From Solemya velum gill symbiont (GTDB taxonomy: Bacteria; Pseudomonadota; Gammaproteobacteria; Chromatiales; Chromatiaceae): a stretch of 64,000 nucleotides of DNA. Position numbers and translations under genes: made by a program. The stretch's first letter is position 1; each line of letters opens with the position of its first letter. The notes under the pieces were generated by a model. The model was not told where the DNA came from, did no database searches, and saw only the letters and a list, made by a program, of their open reading frames with translations. The DNA lies in contig NZ_JRAA01000003.1 of the NCBI RefSeq assembly GCF_000787395.1, positions 310,001 to 374,000 of the forward strand, read 5' to 3'. Positions 3,608 through 44,101 of the stretch are shown here, one piece after another.

Positions 3608-4792
3608 TCAGCTAATCGCCTTCTCGATACGGTCCATAGCTGTCTCAAGCTCTTCCATACTGGTCGCAATCGAAACACGAAAATAGCCGGCAAGCCCGAA
3701 TGCTGAACCAGGTACCACTGCTACCTCGGCTTTCTGAATAAGGTAGTCAGCCAGCTGCAGGTCATCTGAAATGCCTTCCAGTGACTCGATCAGGTCTGTC
3801 GCTTTCGGGAACAGGTAGAAGGTACCATCCGAAGGGAGGCATTCGATCCCCGGCATACGGTTAAAGCGATCAAGCACATAGTCGTGGCGTTGCTTGAATT
3901 GCACCATCATATCGTTAATGCAGGATTGTGGGCCATTGAGCGCCGTCTCGGCCGCATACTGGGATATTGAAGTCGGGTTCGATGTGCTCTGTGACTGGAT
4001 CTTCTTCATCGCCTTGATGATTTCGACGGGGCCACCGGCATAGCCAATGCGCCAGCCAGTCATCGCGTAGGCCTTGGAGACACCGTTGAGGACGATAATA
4101 CGATCCTCAAGCTGTGGGCAGGCGTTGAGAATGTTGCAGAAGCTTGTTCCTTCCCAGAGGATATGCTCATACATGTCATCAGTTGCGATGACAATCTTGG
4201 GGTGGCTCTCAAGCACCTTGCCAAGCGCTTCAAGCTCTTCCATGCTGTAGGCCATTCCGCTCGGGTTGGAAGGGCTGTTGATCACGAAGAGGCGTGTTGC
4301 CTCGGTGATGGATGTCTCGAGTTGCTGTGGCGTGATCTTGAAATTCTGTTCGGCATCAGCATTGATATAAACGGGAACGCCACCTGCCAGGATCGCCATA
4401 TCAGGATACGAGACCCAGTACGGCGCCGGTATGATGACCTCGTCGCCCGGATCGAGAATAGCCTGTGCAAGGTTGTAAAAACTCTGCTTGCCACCGCATG
4501 AGACCAGGATCTGGTCAGCCTCGAATGAAAAGTTATTATCACGCTTGAACTTGTCGATAATCGCCTGCTTGAGGCTGGCAGTACCATCGACTGCGGTATA
4601 ACGGGTTTTGCCGCTCTTGATCGCATCGATACCTGCCTGCTGGATGTGCTCAGGAGTGTCAAAATCGGGCTCGCCTGCTCCGAGACCAATAATATCCTTG
4701 CCTGCCGCCCTTAATTCAGCCGCGCGTGCGGTAATGGCCAGTGTGGGCGAGGGTTTTACAGCCTGGACTCGTTGTGACAGCTTTAATGACAT
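3608..4792 (-). CDS. aspC: Class I aminotransferase, aspartate aminotransferase type
   Basis: A 394-residue fold-type I PLP enzyme that reversibly transfers the amino group of aspartate to 2-oxoglutarate. Visible landmarks are the N-terminal GLGAGEPDFDTPEH, the substrate/PLP region PYWVSYPDM, NSPSNPSG, and the PLP lysine in SKAYAMTGWRIGYAGG. These are typical of the bacterial subgroup that includes Thermus-type AspAT, some members of which also act on prephenate. Length is normal. It is transcribed away from uvrB, with an 88-bp intergenic region between the two starts. Exact substrate preference is not decided by the sequence I can read. Confidence 0.93.
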   Translation of the reverse strand: MSLKLSQRVQAVKPSPTLAITARAAELRAAGKDIIGLGAGEPDFDTPEHIQQAGIDAIKSGKTRYTAVDGTASLKQAIIDKFKRDNNFSFEADQILVSCGGKQSFYNLAQAILDPGDEVIIPAPYWVSYPDMAILAGGVPVYINADAEQNFKITPQQLETSITEATRLFVINSPSNPSGMAYSMEELEALGKVLESHPKIVIATDDMYEHILWEGTSFCNILNACPQLEDRIIVLNGVSKAYAMTGWRIGYAGGPVEIIKAMKKIQSQSTSNPTSISQYAAETALNGPQSCINDMMVQFKQRHDYVLDRFNRMPGIECLPSDGTFYLFPKATDLIESLEGISDDLQLADYLIQKAEVAVVPGSAFGLAGYFRVSIATSMEELETAMDRIEKAIS

Positions 4793-4880
4793 CTTTATGC
4801 TTTCCTGACAGTTAAGATCGAAGTCGTGATCGATAATCTGTAATAATATCCAATTTACACACTCCCGCGTAGTTCTTTTT

Positions 4881-6887
4881 ATGTCCAGGCCATTTCAAAT
4901 TGCATCCAGTTACGAGGCCGCCGGCGACCAGCCTGCTGCAATCGCAAGTCTGGTCGAGGGTATCCATGACGGTGAGGCCGGGCTCACACTGCTCGGTGTA
5001 ACCGGCTCAGGAAAGACTTTTACCATCGCCAACGTGGTTCAGGCTCTGCAGCGTCCAACGATTATCATGGCTCACAACAAGACGTTGGCAGCGCAGCTGT
5101 ATGGCGAGATGAAGGAGTTTTTCCCTAACAATGCGGTTGAGTATTTCGTCTCCTACTATGACTACTACCAGCCTGAGGCTTACGTTCCAGCATCTGATAC
5201 TTTCATAGAGAAGGATGCATCGATCAACGAGCATATCGAGCAGATGCGCCTGTCGGCAACCAAGGCGCTGCTGGAGCGACACGACACGGTGATTGTCGCT
5301 ACTGTCTCTGCAATTTATGGCCTTGGTGACCCACGCCAGTATCTCTCCATGGTGTTGCACCTGGTTCGCGGCGACCAGGTTGCACAGCGCGACATTCTGA
5401 GGCGCCTTGCTGAACTGCAGTACAAGCGTAATGACGTGGTACTTGACCGCGGTACCTTCCGTGTACGCGGTGATGTGATCGATATTTTTCCTGCAGAATC
5501 GGAAGAGGAGGCGATCCGCATCGAATTGTTCGATGATGAGATTGAGCAGATCAGCCTCTTTGATCCTCTCACTGGCGAGGTCAGACAGCGCCCGGCACGC
5601 TACACCATCTATCCGAAGACTCACTATGTCACACCGCGCGAGACGATTCTCGCCGCGGTAGACGAGATCAAGGTTGAGCTGGCGGAACGACTTGCCCAAC
5701 TGCGTGATAACAACAAGCTGGTTGAAGCACAACGGCTTGAGCAGCGTACCCAGTTTGATATGGAGATGATGCTTGAGCTTGGTTACTGTTCGGGAATCGA
5801 GAACTACTCGCGCTATCTCTCCGGACGCAAGCCGGGGGAGTCACCGCCCACGCTGTTCGATTACCTGCCGGATGATGCCCTGTTGGTGATCGACGAGTCA
5901 CATGTCACGGTGCCGCAGATTGGCGGCATGTTCCGTGGAGACAGGTCTCGCAAGGAAAACCTGGTCGAATTCGGATTTCGCCTGCCATCGGCGTTGGATA
6001 ACCGTCCACTCAGATTCGAGGAGTTTGAAACGCGTTCCCCGCAAACCATCTATGTCACGGCAACACCGCGTGACTATGAACTTGCACATTCCGGAGCCGT
6101 GGTAGAGCAGGTTGTGCGGCCGACAGGGTTGGTTGATCCCGAAGTCGAAATTCGCCCGGCAACCACCCAGGTTGATGACCTGCTGTCAGAAATTCGCCTG
6201 CGTGCGGCTGCCGGTGAACGTGTACTTGTGACCACGCTGACCAAGCGCATGGCTGAGGATCTGACTGAGTACCTGATGGAGCACGATGTACGAGTGCGCT
6301 ACCTGCACTCCGACATCGAGACGGTTGAACGTATCGAAATTATTCGCGACCTGCGACTGGGGACTTTCGATGTACTGGTCGGGATCAACCTGTTGAGAGA
6401 GGGTCTCGATATGCCGGAGGTGTCACTGGTAGCAATCCTTGATGCGGACAAGGAGGGGTTCCTGCGTTCAGATACCTCTTTGATCCAGACTATCGGGCGT
6501 GCCGCACGTAATGTTAAAGGCAAGGCAATCCTTTACGCCGATAAGATTACAGGTTCCATGCAGCGCGCCATTGATGAGACAGAGCGCCGTCGTAAAAAGC
6601 AGATCGACTATAACCTTGAACATGGCATTACGCCGAAAAGTATTATCAAAAATGTTGCCGATATCATGGAGGGCGCCTATCCGGGAGCGCCGATGAAGGC
6701 GAAACAGTTCGCCAGGGTGGCGGAGCAGATGGCTGAATACGCATCGCTGACTCCAACGCAAATGGCGAAGAAGCTGAAGGAGATAGAAAAGCAGATGCAT
6801 CGCCATGCAGAAAACCTGGAGTTTGAAGAAGCGGCAAAGCTGCGTGACCAGTTAAAGTCGATCAGGGAGGCTGGATTTGTCTCCTGA
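4881..6887 (+). CDS. uvrB: Excinuclease ABC subunit B
   Basis: A 668-residue UvrB, the damage-verifying helicase-like subunit of nucleotide excision repair. Walker A is in [10 protein letters not shown], the beta-hairpin region is in [12 protein letters not shown], helicase motifs II and VI appear as LVIDESH and QTIGRAARN, and the C-terminal UVR motif ([14 protein letters not shown]) contacts UvrC. Length matches the family. The start follows a pyrimidine-rich leader without a strong Shine-Dalgarno. I looked for a LexA box (CTGT-N8-ACAG) upstream and did not find one. Confidence 0.98.
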
Positions 6888-6983
6888 ATTTTTCCAGGAT
6901 TGATAATTATCAAGGACACACCGCCTGGTTTAGAGCAAAGTCACAAGTGGTGATATCCAGGTCGTATATTCACCTCCGTAATT

Positions 6984-7019
6984 GGCCGTACCGCGAACGC
7001 GGGCACGGCCATTTTTTTG
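6984..7019 (+). terminator. Rho-independent terminator downstream of uvrB
   Basis: GGCCGT and ACGGCC flank a CCGCG/CGCGG inner stem with a tiny AA loop, followed by ATTTTTTTG. It lies about 100 bp after the uvrB stop and before the next rightward gene. The 97 bp between the uvrB stop and this hairpin hold no gene I can recognise. Confidence 0.85.
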
Positions 7020-7135
7020 TCTGATGATTTTATATCACCAACAATTTCTGAAAGTTTTCTCTTCTGCTGCGTGTCTCTTTTTACAAGGCCGTTCAAGACG
7101 ACCTTAAGAGAAAATAACCACGTTGGAGAAGGAAT

Positions 7136-7435
7136 ATGAATAAATTAATACAGACAGCAGGCATCGCTCTTCTTTTCGTATCAGGTGTAGCAATTGCTGA
7201 TGTGGAAGGTGCATTTCATACAGATGTCCACGAAGGTATCAGTGAGAGTATCGCTGAAACAGGCGGCAATTATGGTCGCAGTGCTGATCCGATTGCAGCA
7301 GCATTTCCGGGTAATCCTGAGCTCTATGCAGGACACGAAGCAGATGGAAGTGGCTCATCAGTAGCATCGAACCTCTCGTCATTAGACATGGTCAATGCCG
7401 GTAGCCCTGAATCAGAAATCTGCGGCTGCAGCTGA
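7136..7435 (+). CDS. Small secreted protein of unknown function
   Basis: A 99-residue protein with a good Shine-Dalgarno (GGAGAAGG, 4 bases before ATG) and a clear Sec signal peptide: basic MNK start, hydrophobic core to about residue 18, likely cleavage after AIA. The mature part is about 78 residues, rich in Gly, Ser, Glu and Ala, with few basic residues, and ends in a CGCS tail holding the only two cysteines. I do not recognise a family. It is monocistronic, between the uvrB terminator and the convergent nitrilase gene. The C-terminal Cys pair could bind metal or form a disulfide, but that is speculation. Confidence 0.6.
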   Translation: MNKLIQTAGIALLFVSGVAIADVEGAFHTDVHEGISESIAETGGNYGRSADPIAAAFPGNPELYAGHEADGSGSSVASNLSSLDMVNAGSPESEICGCS

Positions 7436-7586
7436 TACGCAGGCTGTTCAGATGATAATGCTACTCAAAGATGCATGTTCAACAGAGGGATGACCAGGCC
7501 AGGGATGGCACAAGCCGGGGGCTGGATCGAATCTATCGATGCCGCCCCGTGTGGTGAGGCTCCCTGCTTGATGCAGATTGAGAATC

Positions 7587-8519
7587 CTATTCGAAATCGA
7601 CAGGTGTCTGACTCTTCCGGTCAATATGCAGTGTAAAGATATCGGGTCTTGAATAATGACCTGCCACATCAAATCCCCGTCGCGCAATGGCGACCTCGTC
7701 CAGATCGATTTCAGCGGTGATAATCTCCTGGGTTTGATTAAAGGGACCGGCTACGAGGTTTCCACGGGGTGAGATAACAACCGAGTCTCCCGGATTAATC
7801 CACTCTTCGTCATCCGGATAGAGTCGTTCCTTTTCAGGAAAATCATCCGGAATATCATCGTGACGTGTGGCTACGCCCGCACTGATCACCCAGCAACAAC
7901 CTTCACGAGCTATGTGCTGCATGGTGCCGAGCCAGTCATCTCCGCTGTCGTATGTCGGTGCCACGTAGATCTCGACACCCTGCGCATAGAGTGCAAAGCG
8001 TGCCAGTGGCATGTAGTTTTCCCAGCAGATGAGAGAGCCGATGCGTCCACATGGTGTGTCGATGACTTTCAAACCGGATGCATCACCTTGGCCCCATACC
8101 ATGCGCTCGGGATTCGTGGGCATCAGCTTACGATGACGGTTGAGAAGGCTTCCGTCAGGACCGATAGTCACGACACTGTTATAAAGTGTGGAGCGGCTCA
8201 ATTGTCCATCACGTTCATTAATACCGGCAACAATCGTCAACTGATGCTCGGCAGCTGCTTCACGCAGGGGTTTCAGGTCATCGGTCTCAAGATCGACAGC
8301 ATTCTTCAACAGGCGATGGTGAACTTCATCCGAAATGCCCCAGTCACCACCCGGGCGTAATCGCCAGATCCATGCGGGATAGCCGGGAAAAAATGCTTCA
8401 GGAAAAATAACCAGTTTGGCACCGCCGGCTGCTGCTTCTGCGACAAGACCGATGGCTTTTTGCATCGTTTGTTGTGCATCAAGAATGACGGGGGAGTGCT
8501 GTACGATAGCAACTTGCAT
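7587..8519 (-). CDS. Nitrilase/carbon-nitrogen hydrolase, nitrilase branch
   Basis: A 310-residue member of the nitrilase superfamily, which hydrolyses nitriles or amides through a Glu-Lys-Cys triad. The Glu is in VIFPEAFFPGYP, the Lys in NRHRKLMPT and the nucleophile in SLICWENYMPLAR. The CWEN context and AREGCCWVISAG favour a true nitrilase over an amidase. I moved the start 20 codons inside the longest frame because MQVAIVQHSP matches the family N-terminus and is preceded by an AGGAGA Shine-Dalgarno. A terminator separates it from the upstream SH3/arg operon, so it should have its own promoter. The substrate is unknown. Confidence 0.9.
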   Translation of the reverse strand: MQVAIVQHSPVILDAQQTMQKAIGLVAEAAAGGAKLVIFPEAFFPGYPAWIWRLRPGGDWGISDEVHHRLLKNAVDLETDDLKPLREAAAEHQLTIVAGINERDGQLSRSTLYNSVVTIGPDGSLLNRHRKLMPTNPERMVWGQGDASGLKVIDTPCGRIGSLICWENYMPLARFALYAQGVEIYVAPTYDSGDDWLGTMQHIAREGCCWVISAGVATRHDDIPDDFPEKERLYPDDEEWINPGDSVVISPRGNLVAGPFNQTQEIITAEIDLDEVAIARRGFDVAGHYSRPDIFTLHIDRKSQTPVDFE

Positions 8520-8620
8520 AACCTGATCTCCTGTTTGGGGCCTGGATGTGTTCCGCTTGACTGGATATTGGCAAGACACATGGAATCAATGGTCTGCCAA
8601 ATGGGTGTAGGAAAATAGTA

Positions 8621-8650
8621 TAGCAAAACGGCCTGCAGATGCAGGCCGTT
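8621..8650 (-). terminator. Rho-independent terminator of the argD-argF-SH3 operon
   Basis: AACGGCCTGC and GCAGGCCGTT are perfectly complementary around an AGAT loop. Read leftward the stem is followed by TTTTGCTA. It lies about 33 bp past the SH3 protein stop and upstream of the nitrilase gene. Confidence 0.85.
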
Positions 8651-8682
8651 GTGACAGGTGTGTAGGCTGTTCGGGGTTGCTG

Positions 8683-9396
8683 TTACAGGTCACCCCAACC
8701 ACCAGAGCCTTGGCGACGTCCGAAGCTGAGCCTCGGAAGGATGAAGCCAAACAGGATGCCGAGGATCAGAACGCCGGCACCGATAATGAACCAGCGCTGA
8801 TTGTGACTGTTTTCAAAATCGCGCTTGACCTGCTGTAGGTCGGCAAGTTGACGGGTCAGATCTGTCACCTGCTTGCGTAGTTCAGTACGTTCCTTGGCAA
8901 TATTGATTGCATTGCTCGCTGTCTGGTGAATGCCTGCAAGCTCCTGCGTCAGTTTGTTCTTCTCGTCAGTAGCTCCCTGGTAACGTTCCTGCAACTTGGT
9001 ATAGTCAGTCGTCAGCTGTACGAAACGTGATCGGATCTGGTTGTTGGAGAGGTTTTCCAACTGTGCCAGTGTCGCTTCGGTGAGCGGTGGATTAACACAA
9101 GTGCGGGGCTCATCCATCAGTTGGCGTGATAAGACATATCCAACTTTGCCGGATTCGGTTTTGACCTTGGTGTAACCAGCTTTCTGGTTTACCGAGACTA
9201 TCTCGAGTGGGGTTCCGCTTCTCAGGCGTGCCAGGATCTTGTAATTGGTTCCTTCACCGGCGCGCATGTTAATCAGCAGGCTATTGGATACATACCTGGT
9301 TTGTGTGTCGGTTTCTGCTTCTTGCGCCATCGCAAGCGGTGCATTGAGACACAGTAGAACAAAGGCTGTCAGACAGAGATTAATTACTTTTTTCAT
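8683..9396 (-). CDS. SH3-domain periplasmic protein with C-terminal membrane anchor (TIGR04211-like)
   Basis: A 237-residue protein with a signal peptide (cleavage near AMAQ, residue 25), a bacterial SH3 domain at about 33-95 ([20 protein letters not shown]), a long coiled coil at about 110-200, and a C-terminal transmembrane helix ([20 protein letters not shown]) followed by a short basic Gly-rich tail. This order matches the SH3-and-anchor family that includes E. coli YgiM. The role is presumed to be in the cell envelope, with bacterial SH3 domains often binding peptidoglycan. The start overlaps the argF stop by 4 bp (ATGA), so the two are translationally coupled. Confidence 0.85.
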
Positions 9397-17932: not shown

Positions 17933-18919
17933 TTAGTTTGGAACTGAATCCATGTAGTCGCGTGCGGGCTGCATGACAGCGCGTCCGGTGGGTGTCAGTT
18001 TTGCATGTTGTTTAACGACACCGTAGCCGTTTTCGAAATTGACTTTGTCAGCCTGCATGTGGCTTGTGGCAAGTTCAAGTTGAGGTTGGGTGAGTTGACC
18101 ACTATTGATCAGCTGCGACATGGCCCAGTGCATGCGGGCAGAGACCCAGGTGGCGTGGTAGATGCCATCCATTGGACGCGGATCAAACCGCAGAGGTGAC
18201 GGGAAAAGTTCATCGTCACTGTTGCTCACGAGCATTTCATCCCTGCAGAAGCCAAACAGCAGCATGTGGGCGCTTTCATGGGCAAGTACCTCGAGCAGGG
18301 CGATTTCATTTTCATGCGCCAGGGCGTTAAGAAATAATCCACCCCACATCATGTAGCTTGATCCGCCATCAAAGCGGTAGTCACTCTCAGAGTCAGGAAC
18401 GACCATGATGATCTGGCTGATAAGCGCATTGATTTCACCGGCAAGTTCGGGAATCGTGCTCTCCATCAACTTCATTGTCTCCCCGAGCCTGGAGGTGAAG
18501 GTTTCGGTTACCTGTTGCGATGGTGCCGTGATTGGGAATTCTGTGTCCGGATCTGAACCCATCAGTTGCTTCATCCTCTCGGCCTGCCTGGCTAGCAGGG
18601 GTGAATCGAGAGGTGCTATTTGTGGTGTGTTCGTGACGGGCTTTTCCTGTAGTAGCTCTGCGAGCAGTCCTTCAGCTTCTGCAAAATTCCCGGCAAGCAG
18701 TATCTTGACCAGTTCGGTGTAAATCGCAAAAGTCGAGGGAGGATATTTCTCCCCCTGTTTCAGTCGAGTTGCGATGTTCTGCAACTGCTCCTCGTTAAAG
18801 CTGATTTGCCCCCTGATCTGATCAGCGATGTGTTCAAGGCTCTCGCCAAGCAGGGTACGCATGCGGTGGTCAATCAGCCTGGCGCGTTGTGCATCTGGTG
18901 CAAATCGAAAATCATTCAT
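17933..18919 (-). CDS. HEXXH-motif protein, putative RiPP peptide-modifying enzyme
   Basis: A 328-residue soluble protein. HESAH is at 214-218 within LLEVLAHESAHMLLFG, and a second conserved block (RFDPRPMDGIYHATWV, 244-258) supplies a likely third metal ligand, H255. This spacing and the DPRP-G-H block resemble the TIGR04267 HEXXH family found beside RiPP precursors, some members of which are 2-oxoglutarate-dependent peptide beta-hydroxylases rather than proteases. It has no signal peptide or membrane segment. It is the last gene of a leftward set of ATP-grasp, peptide and HEXXH, 124 bp after the peptide gene. A metallopeptidase acting on the peptide is the main alternative. Confidence 0.7.
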   Translation of the reverse strand: MNDFRFAPDAQRARLIDHRMRTLLGESLEHIADQIRGQISFNEEQLQNIATRLKQGEKYPPSTFAIYTELVKILLAGNFAEAEGLLAELLQEKPVTNTPQIAPLDSPLLARQAERMKQLMGSDPDTEFPITAPSQQVTETFTSRLGETMKLMESTIPELAGEINALISQIIMVVPDSESDYRFDGGSSYMMWGGLFLNALAHENEIALLEVLAHESAHMLLFGFCRDEMLVSNSDDELFPSPLRFDPRPMDGIYHATWVSARMHWAMSQLINSGQLTQPQLELATSHMQADKVNFENGYGVVKQHAKLTPTGRAVMQPARDYMDSVPN

Positions 18920-18971
18920 GGGAAAGTTGGTCTGCAGGTGGAAGTGAAGTGATGAATAATTCAGAGTAAAG

Positions 18972-19003
18972 CAGCCGGTGATTCAAATTGAATGCACCGG
19001 CTG
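18972..19003 (-). promoter_or_regulatory. Stem-loop between precursor peptide and HEXXH gene
   Basis: CAGCCGGTG and CACCGGCTG are a perfect 9-bp stem with an AT-rich, itself palindromic loop. Read leftward it is followed only by CTTTACTCT, a weak T-run. It lies about 40 bp after the peptide stop. A leaky terminator or mRNA-stabilising hairpin here would raise peptide transcript over the downstream enzyme, as in many RiPP operons. Confidence 0.55.
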
Positions 19004-19043
19004 TTTAGAATGGCTTTTTTGACCAGTTGCTGCCGGTCCTTGA

Positions 19044-19229
19044 TTACATGGTTTTAACGCCAATTTTTCCTAAACCAATCTTGGCAGGAAGTATTGTCGC
19101 TGGTGCAGGTGGAACCTTGCCGCCCCCGCCAATTTTTGATGCGATGCACTTTTCCTTTACTTCTTCTTCTACAATTTTGTAGCCATATAGCTTGGACAGG
19201 TCGAGGTTGATGCTCTTGCTATCGTTCAT
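19044..19229 (-). CDS. Putative RiPP precursor peptide (61 residues)
   Basis: A short gene with an excellent ribosome binding site (GAGGAG, 7 bases before ATG). The N-terminal half is leader-like and charged (LDLSKLYGYKI, then VEEEVKEK) with a single Cys at 28. The C-terminal half is unlike it: no acidic residues, Gly4 at 34-37, then a Pro/Ala stretch and repeated K-I-G units ending in GVKTM. That two-part build, the size, and its position between an ATP-grasp enzyme and an HEXXH protein point to a ribosomally made, modified peptide. There is no signal peptide and no double-Gly export site that I would trust. I know no described family for it. Confidence 0.7.
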   Translation of the reverse strand: MNDSKSINLDLSKLYGYKIVEEEVKEKCIASKIGGGGKVPPAPATILPAKIGLGKIGVKTM

Positions 19230-19273
19230 GGTTGGTCTCCTCAGGCAGGTAATATTATTTCGTTATGTGATAT

Positions 19274-21139
19274 TTATTCAGGATTATCCTGAACTGGCTC
19301 AACTATATAAGATTGCAAGAGGCGCAACAACTGCCTGAATCTGTCACTGTTCTCCATTTCGCCTGTCTCAGGCGCATGAGCAATCTCCTCATCAATGATA
19401 GTTAGCTGATTAATACTGTCTATCGGGAGTCCCGTGGCGAGGAATTCATCACTATCTATAGCGATGACCAGCGCTTCAACAACGCGATTCATCAGCAGGG
19501 AACGGCATTTTCCAAACAGGTTAGGGGCTGCAATATGAATTTCATCGCCAGTTGGGTAGCGGTTCACAATGTGACTGGTCATGAAGCAGTCGATACCCTT
19601 GCCTACATATGATTTCTGGCAGTCAATTGCTGCAGGCACGCTTTTTTTTCCGACGAAAACCTCAACAGGAATGCGGCCATTTCCCGGAACATGATTCTCA
19701 ATAAATTGTGCGAGTGCACCTTCAAGTTTAAATCCGGTCCGGTGGCTGCCAAGCAGGGGCGCAAAATTGACTTCGTTAATAATAGCGCCATTGTTGTGCC
19801 AGGGGACGCTGACATCCGGGGTAATTAAATCGATACCAGCAGAATCCAGTCCGAAGAGCTCTGCTGCCTGAATAGCAATCTCGCGGTTGTGCGGGTGGAT
19901 ATTGTCACTATGATCGTCACTGGCGCCGCCCCAGGCAGTCGCTTCAATTCGTCTGAGGGGCGCACGTTCTCCTTCAGCAGGTATGCTCGACATATCGAAT
20001 CCGGCCTGCTTGAGAGACAGAAGCGCCTCCTGGTCGGAAGGGCAGGATTTCAGTCTTCGCCAGGGTAACTTTTTCAATTCTGTATTGTTGGCCGTCTCGA
20101 TCAACTCGGCAACAGTGTGGATGCCATCACCAGTGACGGATTTTGCCAGCCTGCTATTGGCATACAGCACTTCACCATTGGAGACATAGATACGATGGCA
20201 GACGCCTGCCACTTGCTTTTCTACCAGTACTCCTGGTGAAAGTTTGTGCGCCTCCCTGTAGGCATGCAGCAACCTGTTGTTGTCATGGATATCGACAACA
20301 ATGCCTTCGCCACGCTCACGGTCGACTGGTTTGATAACGACAGGCCAGCCAATACGCTGTGCCGCGTTGATTGCCTCCTGTTCATTATTCACAAATATGT
20401 GCTGTGGTGCAGGTAGGCCAGCCTGTTCCAACAGGGTTGCGGTAAAGCCTTTGTTGGTGCTGAGTCGCGAGCCAATCACAGAGTCTGAGTCAACCGCAGA
20501 GCGATCGACAAGTCTGGCCTGTTTGCCCCAGCCGAGTTGATAGGTGCCCTTGCCAATGTGATGGAACGGGATTCCCTTGTGATGGGCGTTAGCGAGCACC
20601 GGTACCGTAGACTCTCCGCCGGGCACCATTTTGTATGTTTGTTTGATAAAGTTGTCAAGCAGTTGCTGCAGAATAAGTGCAACATTCCGTGGTTCTGTGC
20701 CGTTCTTTGCAACAGCCATAAACACACGGTTGGCTGCCTGGTAGGCGCGCTGAAGCGGAATAGTCGATATGTGATCAAACCAGGGCACAATGATACGCAC
20801 GGCATAGTGGCCGTCCTGGTTCTGTGTCGCTTTGATCGCGAGGATTTTACCTGGATCGAAAACAGGGGCCCTGACCGCTTGTAACAATTCTCTGCTGAGT
20901 ATCATGAGACGCCAGGCCACTTCGGTACATGCGTGCTGCTGCTCATTTAGCTTTTCAGCATCTATCACTTGCTTGCCGCTTGGTTCAACTTCGAAATTAT
21001 CAAGCAGAAATTTGTCGAAATTGACCAGGTGGGGTGTCATCAAAGGGTTGATTGCCAGAGTCAGTATCTTGCCGGGTTGGCGAATACCTGCAAGGTATGT
21101 GCAAGTCTGCTCTGTTCTTATACGCTGTTGATGAGGCAT
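19274..21139 (-). CDS. Cyanophycin-synthetase-like ATP-grasp ligase with degenerate Mur-ligase region
   Basis: A 621-residue protein. Residues about 185-480 match the ATP-grasp part of cyanophycin synthetase: IPFHHIGKGTYQLGWGKQ, GWPVVIKPVDRERGEGIVVD, VTGDGIHTVAELIE, then the metal-binding SAGIDLIT and IINEVNFAP. Cyanophycin synthetase next has a Mur-ligase domain opening with a GTNGKT P-loop; here the same place reads RIPVEVFVGKKS, the P-loop is lost, and only about 130 residues remain. So it probably keeps one ATP-dependent amide ligase activity. No cyanophycinase or second CphA is nearby. It is the first gene of the set, 44 bp before the peptide gene. The start lacks a clear Shine-Dalgarno. 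Confidence 0.8.
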   Translation of the reverse strand: MPHQQRIRTEQTCTYLAGIRQPGKILTLAINPLMTPHLVNFDKFLLDNFEVEPSGKQVIDAEKLNEQQHACTEVAWRLMILSRELLQAVRAPVFDPGKILAIKATQNQDGHYAVRIIVPWFDHISTIPLQRAYQAANRVFMAVAKNGTEPRNVALILQQLLDNFIKQTYKMVPGGESTVPVLANAHHKGIPFHHIGKGTYQLGWGKQARLVDRSAVDSDSVIGSRLSTNKGFTATLLEQAGLPAPQHIFVNNEQEAINAAQRIGWPVVIKPVDRERGEGIVVDIHDNNRLLHAYREAHKLSPGVLVEKQVAGVCHRIYVSNGEVLYANSRLAKSVTGDGIHTVAELIETANNTELKKLPWRRLKSCPSDQEALLSLKQAGFDMSSIPAEGERAPLRRIEATAWGGASDDHSDNIHPHNREIAIQAAELFGLDSAGIDLITPDVSVPWHNNGAIINEVNFAPLLGSHRTGFKLEGALAQFIENHVPGNGRIPVEVFVGKKSVPAAIDCQKSYVGKGIDCFMTSHIVNRYPTGDEIHIAAPNLFGKCRSLLMNRVVEALVIAIDSDEFLATGLPIDSINQLTIIDEEIAHAPETGEMENSDRFRQLLRLLQSYIVEPVQDNPE

Positions 21140-44020: not shown

Positions 44021-44101
<81 letters not shown>

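Follow-up and report, generated by a model that had tools for sequence, protein, structure and literature searches.

A candidate new class of modified peptide encoded by a cyanophycin-synthetase-like ligase, a lysine-repeat precursor and an HExxH enzyme in the Solemya velum gill symbiont

Among ribosomally synthesised and post-translationally modified peptides (RiPPs), graspetides of the microviridin type combine an ATP-grasp ligase with a leader-bearing precursor. Other RiPP pathways use α-ketoglutarate (αKG)-dependent HExxH oxygenases (ChlH, PflC/PosC, PesO and BpmH; profile TIGR04267) encoded next to a precursor gene; in the accessible text on these pathways, the oxygenase is paired with radical SAM, MNIO or Asn-synthetase-like enzymes, not with an ATP-grasp ligase. 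Here, we describe a three-gene cassette with traits of both groups in a 64,000-nucleotide stretch (the window) of the Solemya velum gill symbiont genome (contig NZ_JRAA01000003.1, positions 310,001 to 374,000). It encodes a CphA-like ATP-grasp ligase, a 61-residue peptide and an HExxH enzyme, all on the minus strand at window positions 17933–21139 (Table 1), in agreement with an earlier note on this DNA that took the three leftward genes for one block. The enzyme families are known; the leader and core are without a match in Pfam or NCBIfam (E ≤ 0.01, 14 precursors examined), the combination did not turn up in searches of the open literature, and the cassette is a candidate new RiPP class.

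A 2009 amidoligase survey may describe related neighbourhoods. The earlier note knew of no pathway joining a CphA-type ligase to an HExxH enzyme, and its view holds for the open PMC papers searched (subscription papers and supplements aside), in which we found no ATP-grasp ligase of any type paired with a RiPP HExxH enzyme. The terms HExxH and cyanophycin are absent from the accessible main text of two graspetide surveys (PMC8939145, PMC13097080), and the term ATP-grasp from the accessible main texts of the αKG-HExxH pathway papers examined.

We investigated whether the three genes stay together across genomes. A locus search with an alignment of six HExxH proteins and two short patterns, which leans to close relatives, yielded at least 78 loci in named genomes; 78 of these together with the window, L011 and L012 gave 81 scored loci, of which 58 have an HExxH protein above 320 bits, a line drawn after the scores were known. 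The loci include near-copies (Burkholderiales, Stappia); L010, L013 and L014 were dropped as duplicates of L020, L057 and L069, and L036, L077 and L086, without a full HExxH open reading frame (ORF), stand outside the 58. An ATP-grasp gene lies within 2 kb in 52 of the 58 loci (11 CphA-like, 41 RimK-like), and a RimK-like gene cut by the contig end was located by tblastn in three more (L042, L055, L064), which brings the linkage to 55/58; none was found in L026, L054 or L063, the last being a 3 kb contig. L011 is counted as linked although its CphA-like ligase (6592–8420) is split into two ORFs; the second cassette of the same genome (G067), L012, has an unbroken RimK-like ligase ORF. A precursor, defined as an ORF scoring above 25 with a 15-residue leader profile, is present in 51 of the 58 loci (at this score it was not found in L019, L032, L038, L041, L052, L057 and L065), together with an ATP-grasp gene in 45, and in 47 it lies at most 600 bases upstream of the HExxH gene on the same strand. 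A short precursor beside modifying enzymes, conserved across genomes, is a criterion for RiPP pathways and is what these loci present. Conserved linkage was also the check by which the earlier note proposed to judge its three-gene idea, and the idea survives it. Among 20 lower-scoring HExxH loci, a CphA-like gene lies within 2 kb in seven, and a leader-type precursor was found in one.

The cassette loci include members of Pseudomonadota and Verrucomicrobiota. With the single HExxH protein as the query, relatives were reached in 5 of 274 Gammaproteobacterial genomes, and genome contigs needed an alignment; in single-protein scans, the HExxH protein had no match in viral contigs and the ligase none in genome contigs. 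At E ≤ 1e-10, HExxH is present in 5 of the 274 genomes. The RimK-like ligase matched in 7 of the 274 genomes at the same threshold, two of them weakly (4.7e-13, 4.4e-11), and its strong matches (E ≤ 1e-77) fall in exactly the five HExxH-bearing genomes. Within the taxonomic family of the window, HExxH matches occur in 2 of 194 sampled genomes, the second being weak (2.9e-18); the cassette is thus patchy and may be horizontally mobile. The source genome (2.7 Mb, 99.74% complete) holds a single HExxH gene of the cassette family, and no second precursor copy was found in it.

The precursors share the leader consensus LDxSKLLGF[KR]. Above 25, the leader profile gave 65 matches in the loci, including duplicate loci and double matches, which correspond to 61 distinct precursors. 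Since these precursors are also the ones from which the profile was made, its evidential weight rests on the controls: nothing scored higher than 15 across 166 kb of control DNA or higher than 20 once the loci had been shuffled in blocks of three (3.7 Mb), and within the loci no match above 12 lay more than 4.5 kb from the HExxH gene. A chance ORF is rejected as an account of the peptide by these controls and by its recurrence in other loci. The pattern G-[AS]-K-[VI]-G-x-K abounds in the core, and K-x-G occurs 181 times in the 61 precursors against 57.3 ± 6.4 in 500 shuffles (maximum 77). K-x-G units are found in 54 of the 61 precursors; of the 181 units, 123 have a Lys at +4, 67 a Lys at −4 and 130 a Gly at −2. 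Every tail contains Lys (1 to 15, median 6), and five of the 61 tails, with both ligase types represented, contain neither Asp nor Glu. In graspetides, conserved Asp or Glu residues of the core serve as acceptors; here, no Asp or Glu position stands out around K-x-G. Nor is the C-terminus conserved, the 61 precursors ending in 16 different residues. A conserved leader followed by a variable or repeated core, as in these peptides, is a further criterion for RiPP precursors, and in L058 (Histidinibacterium lentulum) six tandem precursor genes (3746–4980) lie upstream of one HExxH gene.

The HExxH protein of the window scored 100.1 bits against TIGR04267 (cut-off 40), and a profile of six relatives found two HExxH proteins among PDB entries, ChlH (8s5f, 1.2e-8) and 22nu (3.3e-8). 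Its AlphaFold model (predicted local distance difference test score 96.8) superposes on ChlH 8s5f with Z 26.2 and a root-mean-square deviation of 3.3 over 307 aligned residues and on 22ob with Z 23.8, whereas the best chain after both HExxH structures reaches only Z 7.7. ChlH and the window enzyme carry the same HExxH motif and the same SPxRxDxRPxxGxxHA block, and H214, E215, H218, R244, R248, G252 and H255 are invariant in all 70 aligned relatives. From the profile score and the ChlH-like modelled fold, the protein is a member of the αKG-HExxH family, and the earlier note, which had placed it with the TIGR04267 type by its DPRP-G-H block, was right in this; H255 probably binds iron. The leaders and cores of the known αKG-HExxH systems are unlike those of this cassette.

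The ligase is a relative of cyanophycin synthetase, as the earlier note had proposed, but not a full one: it scored 254.9 bits against NF010623, far below the cut-off of 877, and the match stops at profile position 572 of 871. Like CphA1 and CphA2 it has N and G domains, with a similar fold and a profile match of E 2.9e-78. Unlike them, it has neither a Mur-type P-loop nor an HxxEH primer site in its sequence, so that the full CphA1 pattern of G and M domains above the NF010623 cut-off is not what we found, and His267 of the CphA1 G domain aligns with Arg276, an Arg invariant in 16/16 aligned cassette ligases. Among structures compared with its model, the graspetide ligase PsnB (7dro) appears at rank 31, far below CphA. 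In a tree of 26 proteins, which leaves aside the ligase fragments of L011, L017 and L045, a branch with 100/100 support separates 19 rows (16 cassette ligases, two AMP-binding–CphA fusions and a 611-residue homologue from the source genome) from seven, which include the 873-, 807-, 650- and 606-residue homologues of the source genome, the 873-residue one being its CphA. The cassette ligases do not form one clean clade, as the cassette label needs three changes and the 611-residue homologue falls among them. These five additional CphA-like ORFs of the source genome (loci L103–L106) have varied settings; one adjoins an apparent β-keto acid cleavage enzyme and another an apparent P450 and a prenyltransferase (labels by eye).

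In most relatives the ATP-grasp enzyme is RimK/Ddl-like and not CphA-like (41 of the 52 loci); the profile of the RimK-like group found only weak D-Ala-D-Ala ligase matches in the PDB. On an HExxH tree of 77 rows, in whose deep part long branches may meet, the CphA-like/RimK-like label needs five changes against 15.7 in shuffles, and at least four of the five are forced by supported branches. The label is therefore clustered, yet on cores of one kind different carboxylate-activating enzymes have taken each other's place. Several sub-classes were picked out by eye. In L081, L087 and L092, an AMP-binding gene overlaps the HExxH gene by four bases, and small upstream peptides contain GAPKVG or GAAKVG; what the CphA-like, RimK-like and AMP-binding families have in common is the ATP-dependent activation of a carboxylate. 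In L071 (Bradyrhizobium diazoefficiens), a 1139-residue protein with AMP-binding, PP-binding and thioesterase domains (5973–9392) directly follows the HExxH gene. A deeper HExxH clade of nine loci (L072, L075, L076, L078, L079, L080, L082, L083, L093) has a small upstream ORF that starts with 'LxPY(G)' and again contains '[AST]K[VI]G' units, with a CphA-like gene within 2 kb in six of the nine. More distant, Moraxella-type HExxH loci (L084, L085, L086, L088, L089, L091) occur in Moraxella, Acinetobacter, Histophilus, Vibrio and Xenorhabdus; they have a transporter-like neighbour in common (MFS in L084), and a small 'LDxSKVVGLK' peptide is encoded in L084, L086 and L091. Near HExxH cassettes we also observed fusions of an AMP-binding domain with a CphA-like ATP-grasp protein (L082:6784–10101 and L025:8572–10968) and, upstream of the HExxH gene in L065 (4541–4714), a 57-residue ORF that has two 'VSSTGVSVG[VI]KPA' units and may be a precursor of a different type.

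Our preferred reading, held tentatively and falling just short of an even call, is a RiPP cassette whose ligase attaches a carboxylic acid to lysines of the core and whose HExxH enzyme hydroxylates the repeats. The precursor would be held through its LDxSKLLGF-like leader by the HExxH enzyme and probably also by the ligase, and the lysines of the K-x-G repeats would be the targets. Using ATP, the ligase would activate a free carboxylic acid, in the simplest case an amino acid, and link it to the amines of lysine side chains in the core; the HExxH protein, acting as an iron/αKG oxygenase, would hydroxylate the lysine or its neighbour, and proteins encoded outside the cassette would remove the leader and export the product. 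The genes, their conserved linkage, the leader and core, the enzyme families and the exchange of ligases are observations; from them we infer modification of the peptide, lysine as its site, the peptide as the source of the amine, the kind of acid added, the order of the steps, and leader removal and export by other proteins. Lysines are retained in the core, no Asp or Glu position is prominent and the C-terminal residue is variable, which together argue that the peptide would offer lysine amines and that the ligase would bring the carboxylic acid; moreover, the five tails without Asp or Glu indicate that a side-chain carboxylate of the peptide is not needed in general. The order of events proposed here has a parallel in the modification of EF-P by EpmA and EpmC, in which an amino acid is placed on a lysine amine and hydroxylation follows, although those enzymes are unrelated to the ones of the cassette and their substrate is a folded protein. 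According to the accessible text of PMC12636437, relatives of the HExxH enzyme hydroxylate several consecutive Gln residues, so that action at multiple sites has a precedent. A wider reading, which is quite conceivable though doubtful, is a RiPP class forming a modular, branched peptide system, in which K-x-G lysines are acylated with amino acids or other acids by interchangeable ATP-dependent ligases (CphA-like, RimK/Ddl-like, AMP-binding and perhaps a nonribosomal peptide synthetase-like module as in L071) and hydroxylated by αKG-HExxH enzymes.

Several observations weigh against lysine acylation. RimK and CphA ligases activate the carboxylate of a peptide and accept a free amine, which is the opposite polarity. 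We found no demonstrated modification of any peptide of this precursor family in the open literature. Seven of the 61 precursors lack K-x-G and have G-x(1,2)-K-P instead (by eye), and 56 of the 61 tails have at least one Asp or Glu, the four of the window peptide sitting between leader and core. The source genome also encodes a RimK-like copy (L121:8066–8998) apart from the cassette, in an apparent sugar operon with GNAT/FemAB-like, PIG-L-like and glycosyltransferase-like neighbours (labels by eye); from this location we take it to be a paralogue and not a cassette member. Finally, no ligase was detected in the stretch examined around the Moraxella-type loci, and their 'LDxSKVVGLK' peptide in this setting suggests that the leader serves the HExxH enzyme.

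Alternatively, the peptide might be a scaffold or primer: in the manner of CphA and RimK, the ligase would activate its C-terminal carboxylate and extend it there by one or more amino acids, and the HExxH enzyme would hydroxylate added or neighbouring residues. Activation of the peptide carboxylate is the polarity of the CphA G domain in the accessible text of PMC9262961, and the ligase still has the N and G domains of CphA1/CphA2 together with their fold. We nevertheless consider this unlikely: the C-terminus is the variable part while internal K-x-G is enriched, and the invariant Arg276 stands at the position of His267, whose Ala mutant is used as an inactive form of CphA1 (PMC9262961). The missing M-domain P-loop and HxxEH site weaken the idea of a cyanophycin primer in particular. 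Ring closure as in graspetides, in which the ligase would link core lysines through amide bonds to Asp/Glu side chains or to the C-terminus and the HExxH enzyme would hydroxylate, could draw on the lactams that ATP-grasp enzymes make in graspetides and on the many tails with an acidic residue; we regard it as rather improbable, given the lack of a prominent acidic position around K-x-G, the tails devoid of Asp and Glu, and the AMP-binding enzymes that take the place of the ligase in L081, L087 and L092. At E ≤ 1, the PDB chains matched by the RimK-like profile included no graspetide synthetase, an absence that excludes nothing.

Two further accounts assign the enzymes other roles. PflC/PosC cut the peptide chain by oxidation, with an amide remaining at the C-terminus (PMC12636437, accessible text), K recurs at +4 in 123 of 181 units, and no protease was recognised in the cassette of the window; the HExxH enzyme might accordingly dice the K-x-G repeats into short amidated lysine peptides that the ligase caps. 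This is improbable, as β-hydroxylation is the commonest reaction reported for the enzyme family in the accessible text of PMC12636437 and PMC13060819, the latter describing a relative that hydroxylates Pro, and as K-x-G appears only once in the precursor of L020 (Methylohalomonas lacus) and is absent from that of L069. That the peptide is no RiPP precursor at all but a regulatory or cellular small protein, with both enzymes acting on another substrate, is very improbable. Modification of the peptide is not demonstrated and partial surveys found no conserved transporter or protease beside the main group, but precursors typically pair a conserved leader with a variable, repetitive core, as is seen here, and the six tandem precursors of L058 and the ATP-grasp linkage in 55 of 58 loci would be hard to reconcile with such a protein.

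If lysine acylation with hydroxylation is correct, a widespread RiPP class would be added with a chemistry that our searches of the open literature did not find among RiPPs, cyanophycin-type ligases would gain a role beyond cyanophycin, and enzymes that modify regularly spaced lysines under the guidance of a leader would become available.

Table 1. Features of the cassette, in window coordinates.
Feature	Positions	Strand	Remarks
CphA-like ATP-grasp ligase	19274..21139	-	621 aa; N and G domains, without Mur-type M-domain P-loop
Precursor peptide	19044..19229	-	61 aa
Leader part of peptide, MNDSKSINLDLSKLYG	19182..19229	-	Family leader profile; inferred boundary
Core part of peptide, residues 30-61	19047..19142	-	K32-I-G, K50-I-G, K55-I-G; K-x-G enrichment; inferred boundary
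Ribosome binding site GAGGAG of peptide gene	19237..19242	-	7-base spacer to ATG
Stem-loop between peptide and HExxH genes	18967..19007	-	Folding energy
αKG-HExxH (TIGR04267) enzyme	17933..18919	-	328 aa
HESAH metal motif, residues 214-218	18266..18280	-	H214, E215, H218 invariant in 70/70
DPRPMDGIYH block, residues 246-255	18155..18184	-	R248, G252, I253, H255 invariant in 70/70

The peptide gene has the strongest ribosome binding site of the three, as the earlier note had remarked; judged by eye, the ligase and HExxH genes lack a site of similar quality. Between the peptide gene and the HExxH gene lies a stable stem-loop (−30.9 kcal/mol, z −3.66), so that unequal expression of the three genes is possible. 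Across the loci, a conserved extra enzyme, transporter or protease was rejected: blast clustering of 434 neighbour ORFs gave 14 clusters present in at least three loci, the largest covering seven; apart from Burkholderiales flank genes, they comprised an AMP-binding cluster in six loci, the transporter of the distant Moraxella type in six, and the rest in three to five. A Pfam search covering 110 of the 211 neighbours on the list found no more than four members per family in the best 25 of 154 families. The outer neighbours in the window, a GGDEF/EAL protein and an apparent Cys/Met-metabolism pyridoxal phosphate enzyme, seem unrelated to the cassette. The sole tRNA gene detected in the window is a tRNA-Lys at 44026–44101.

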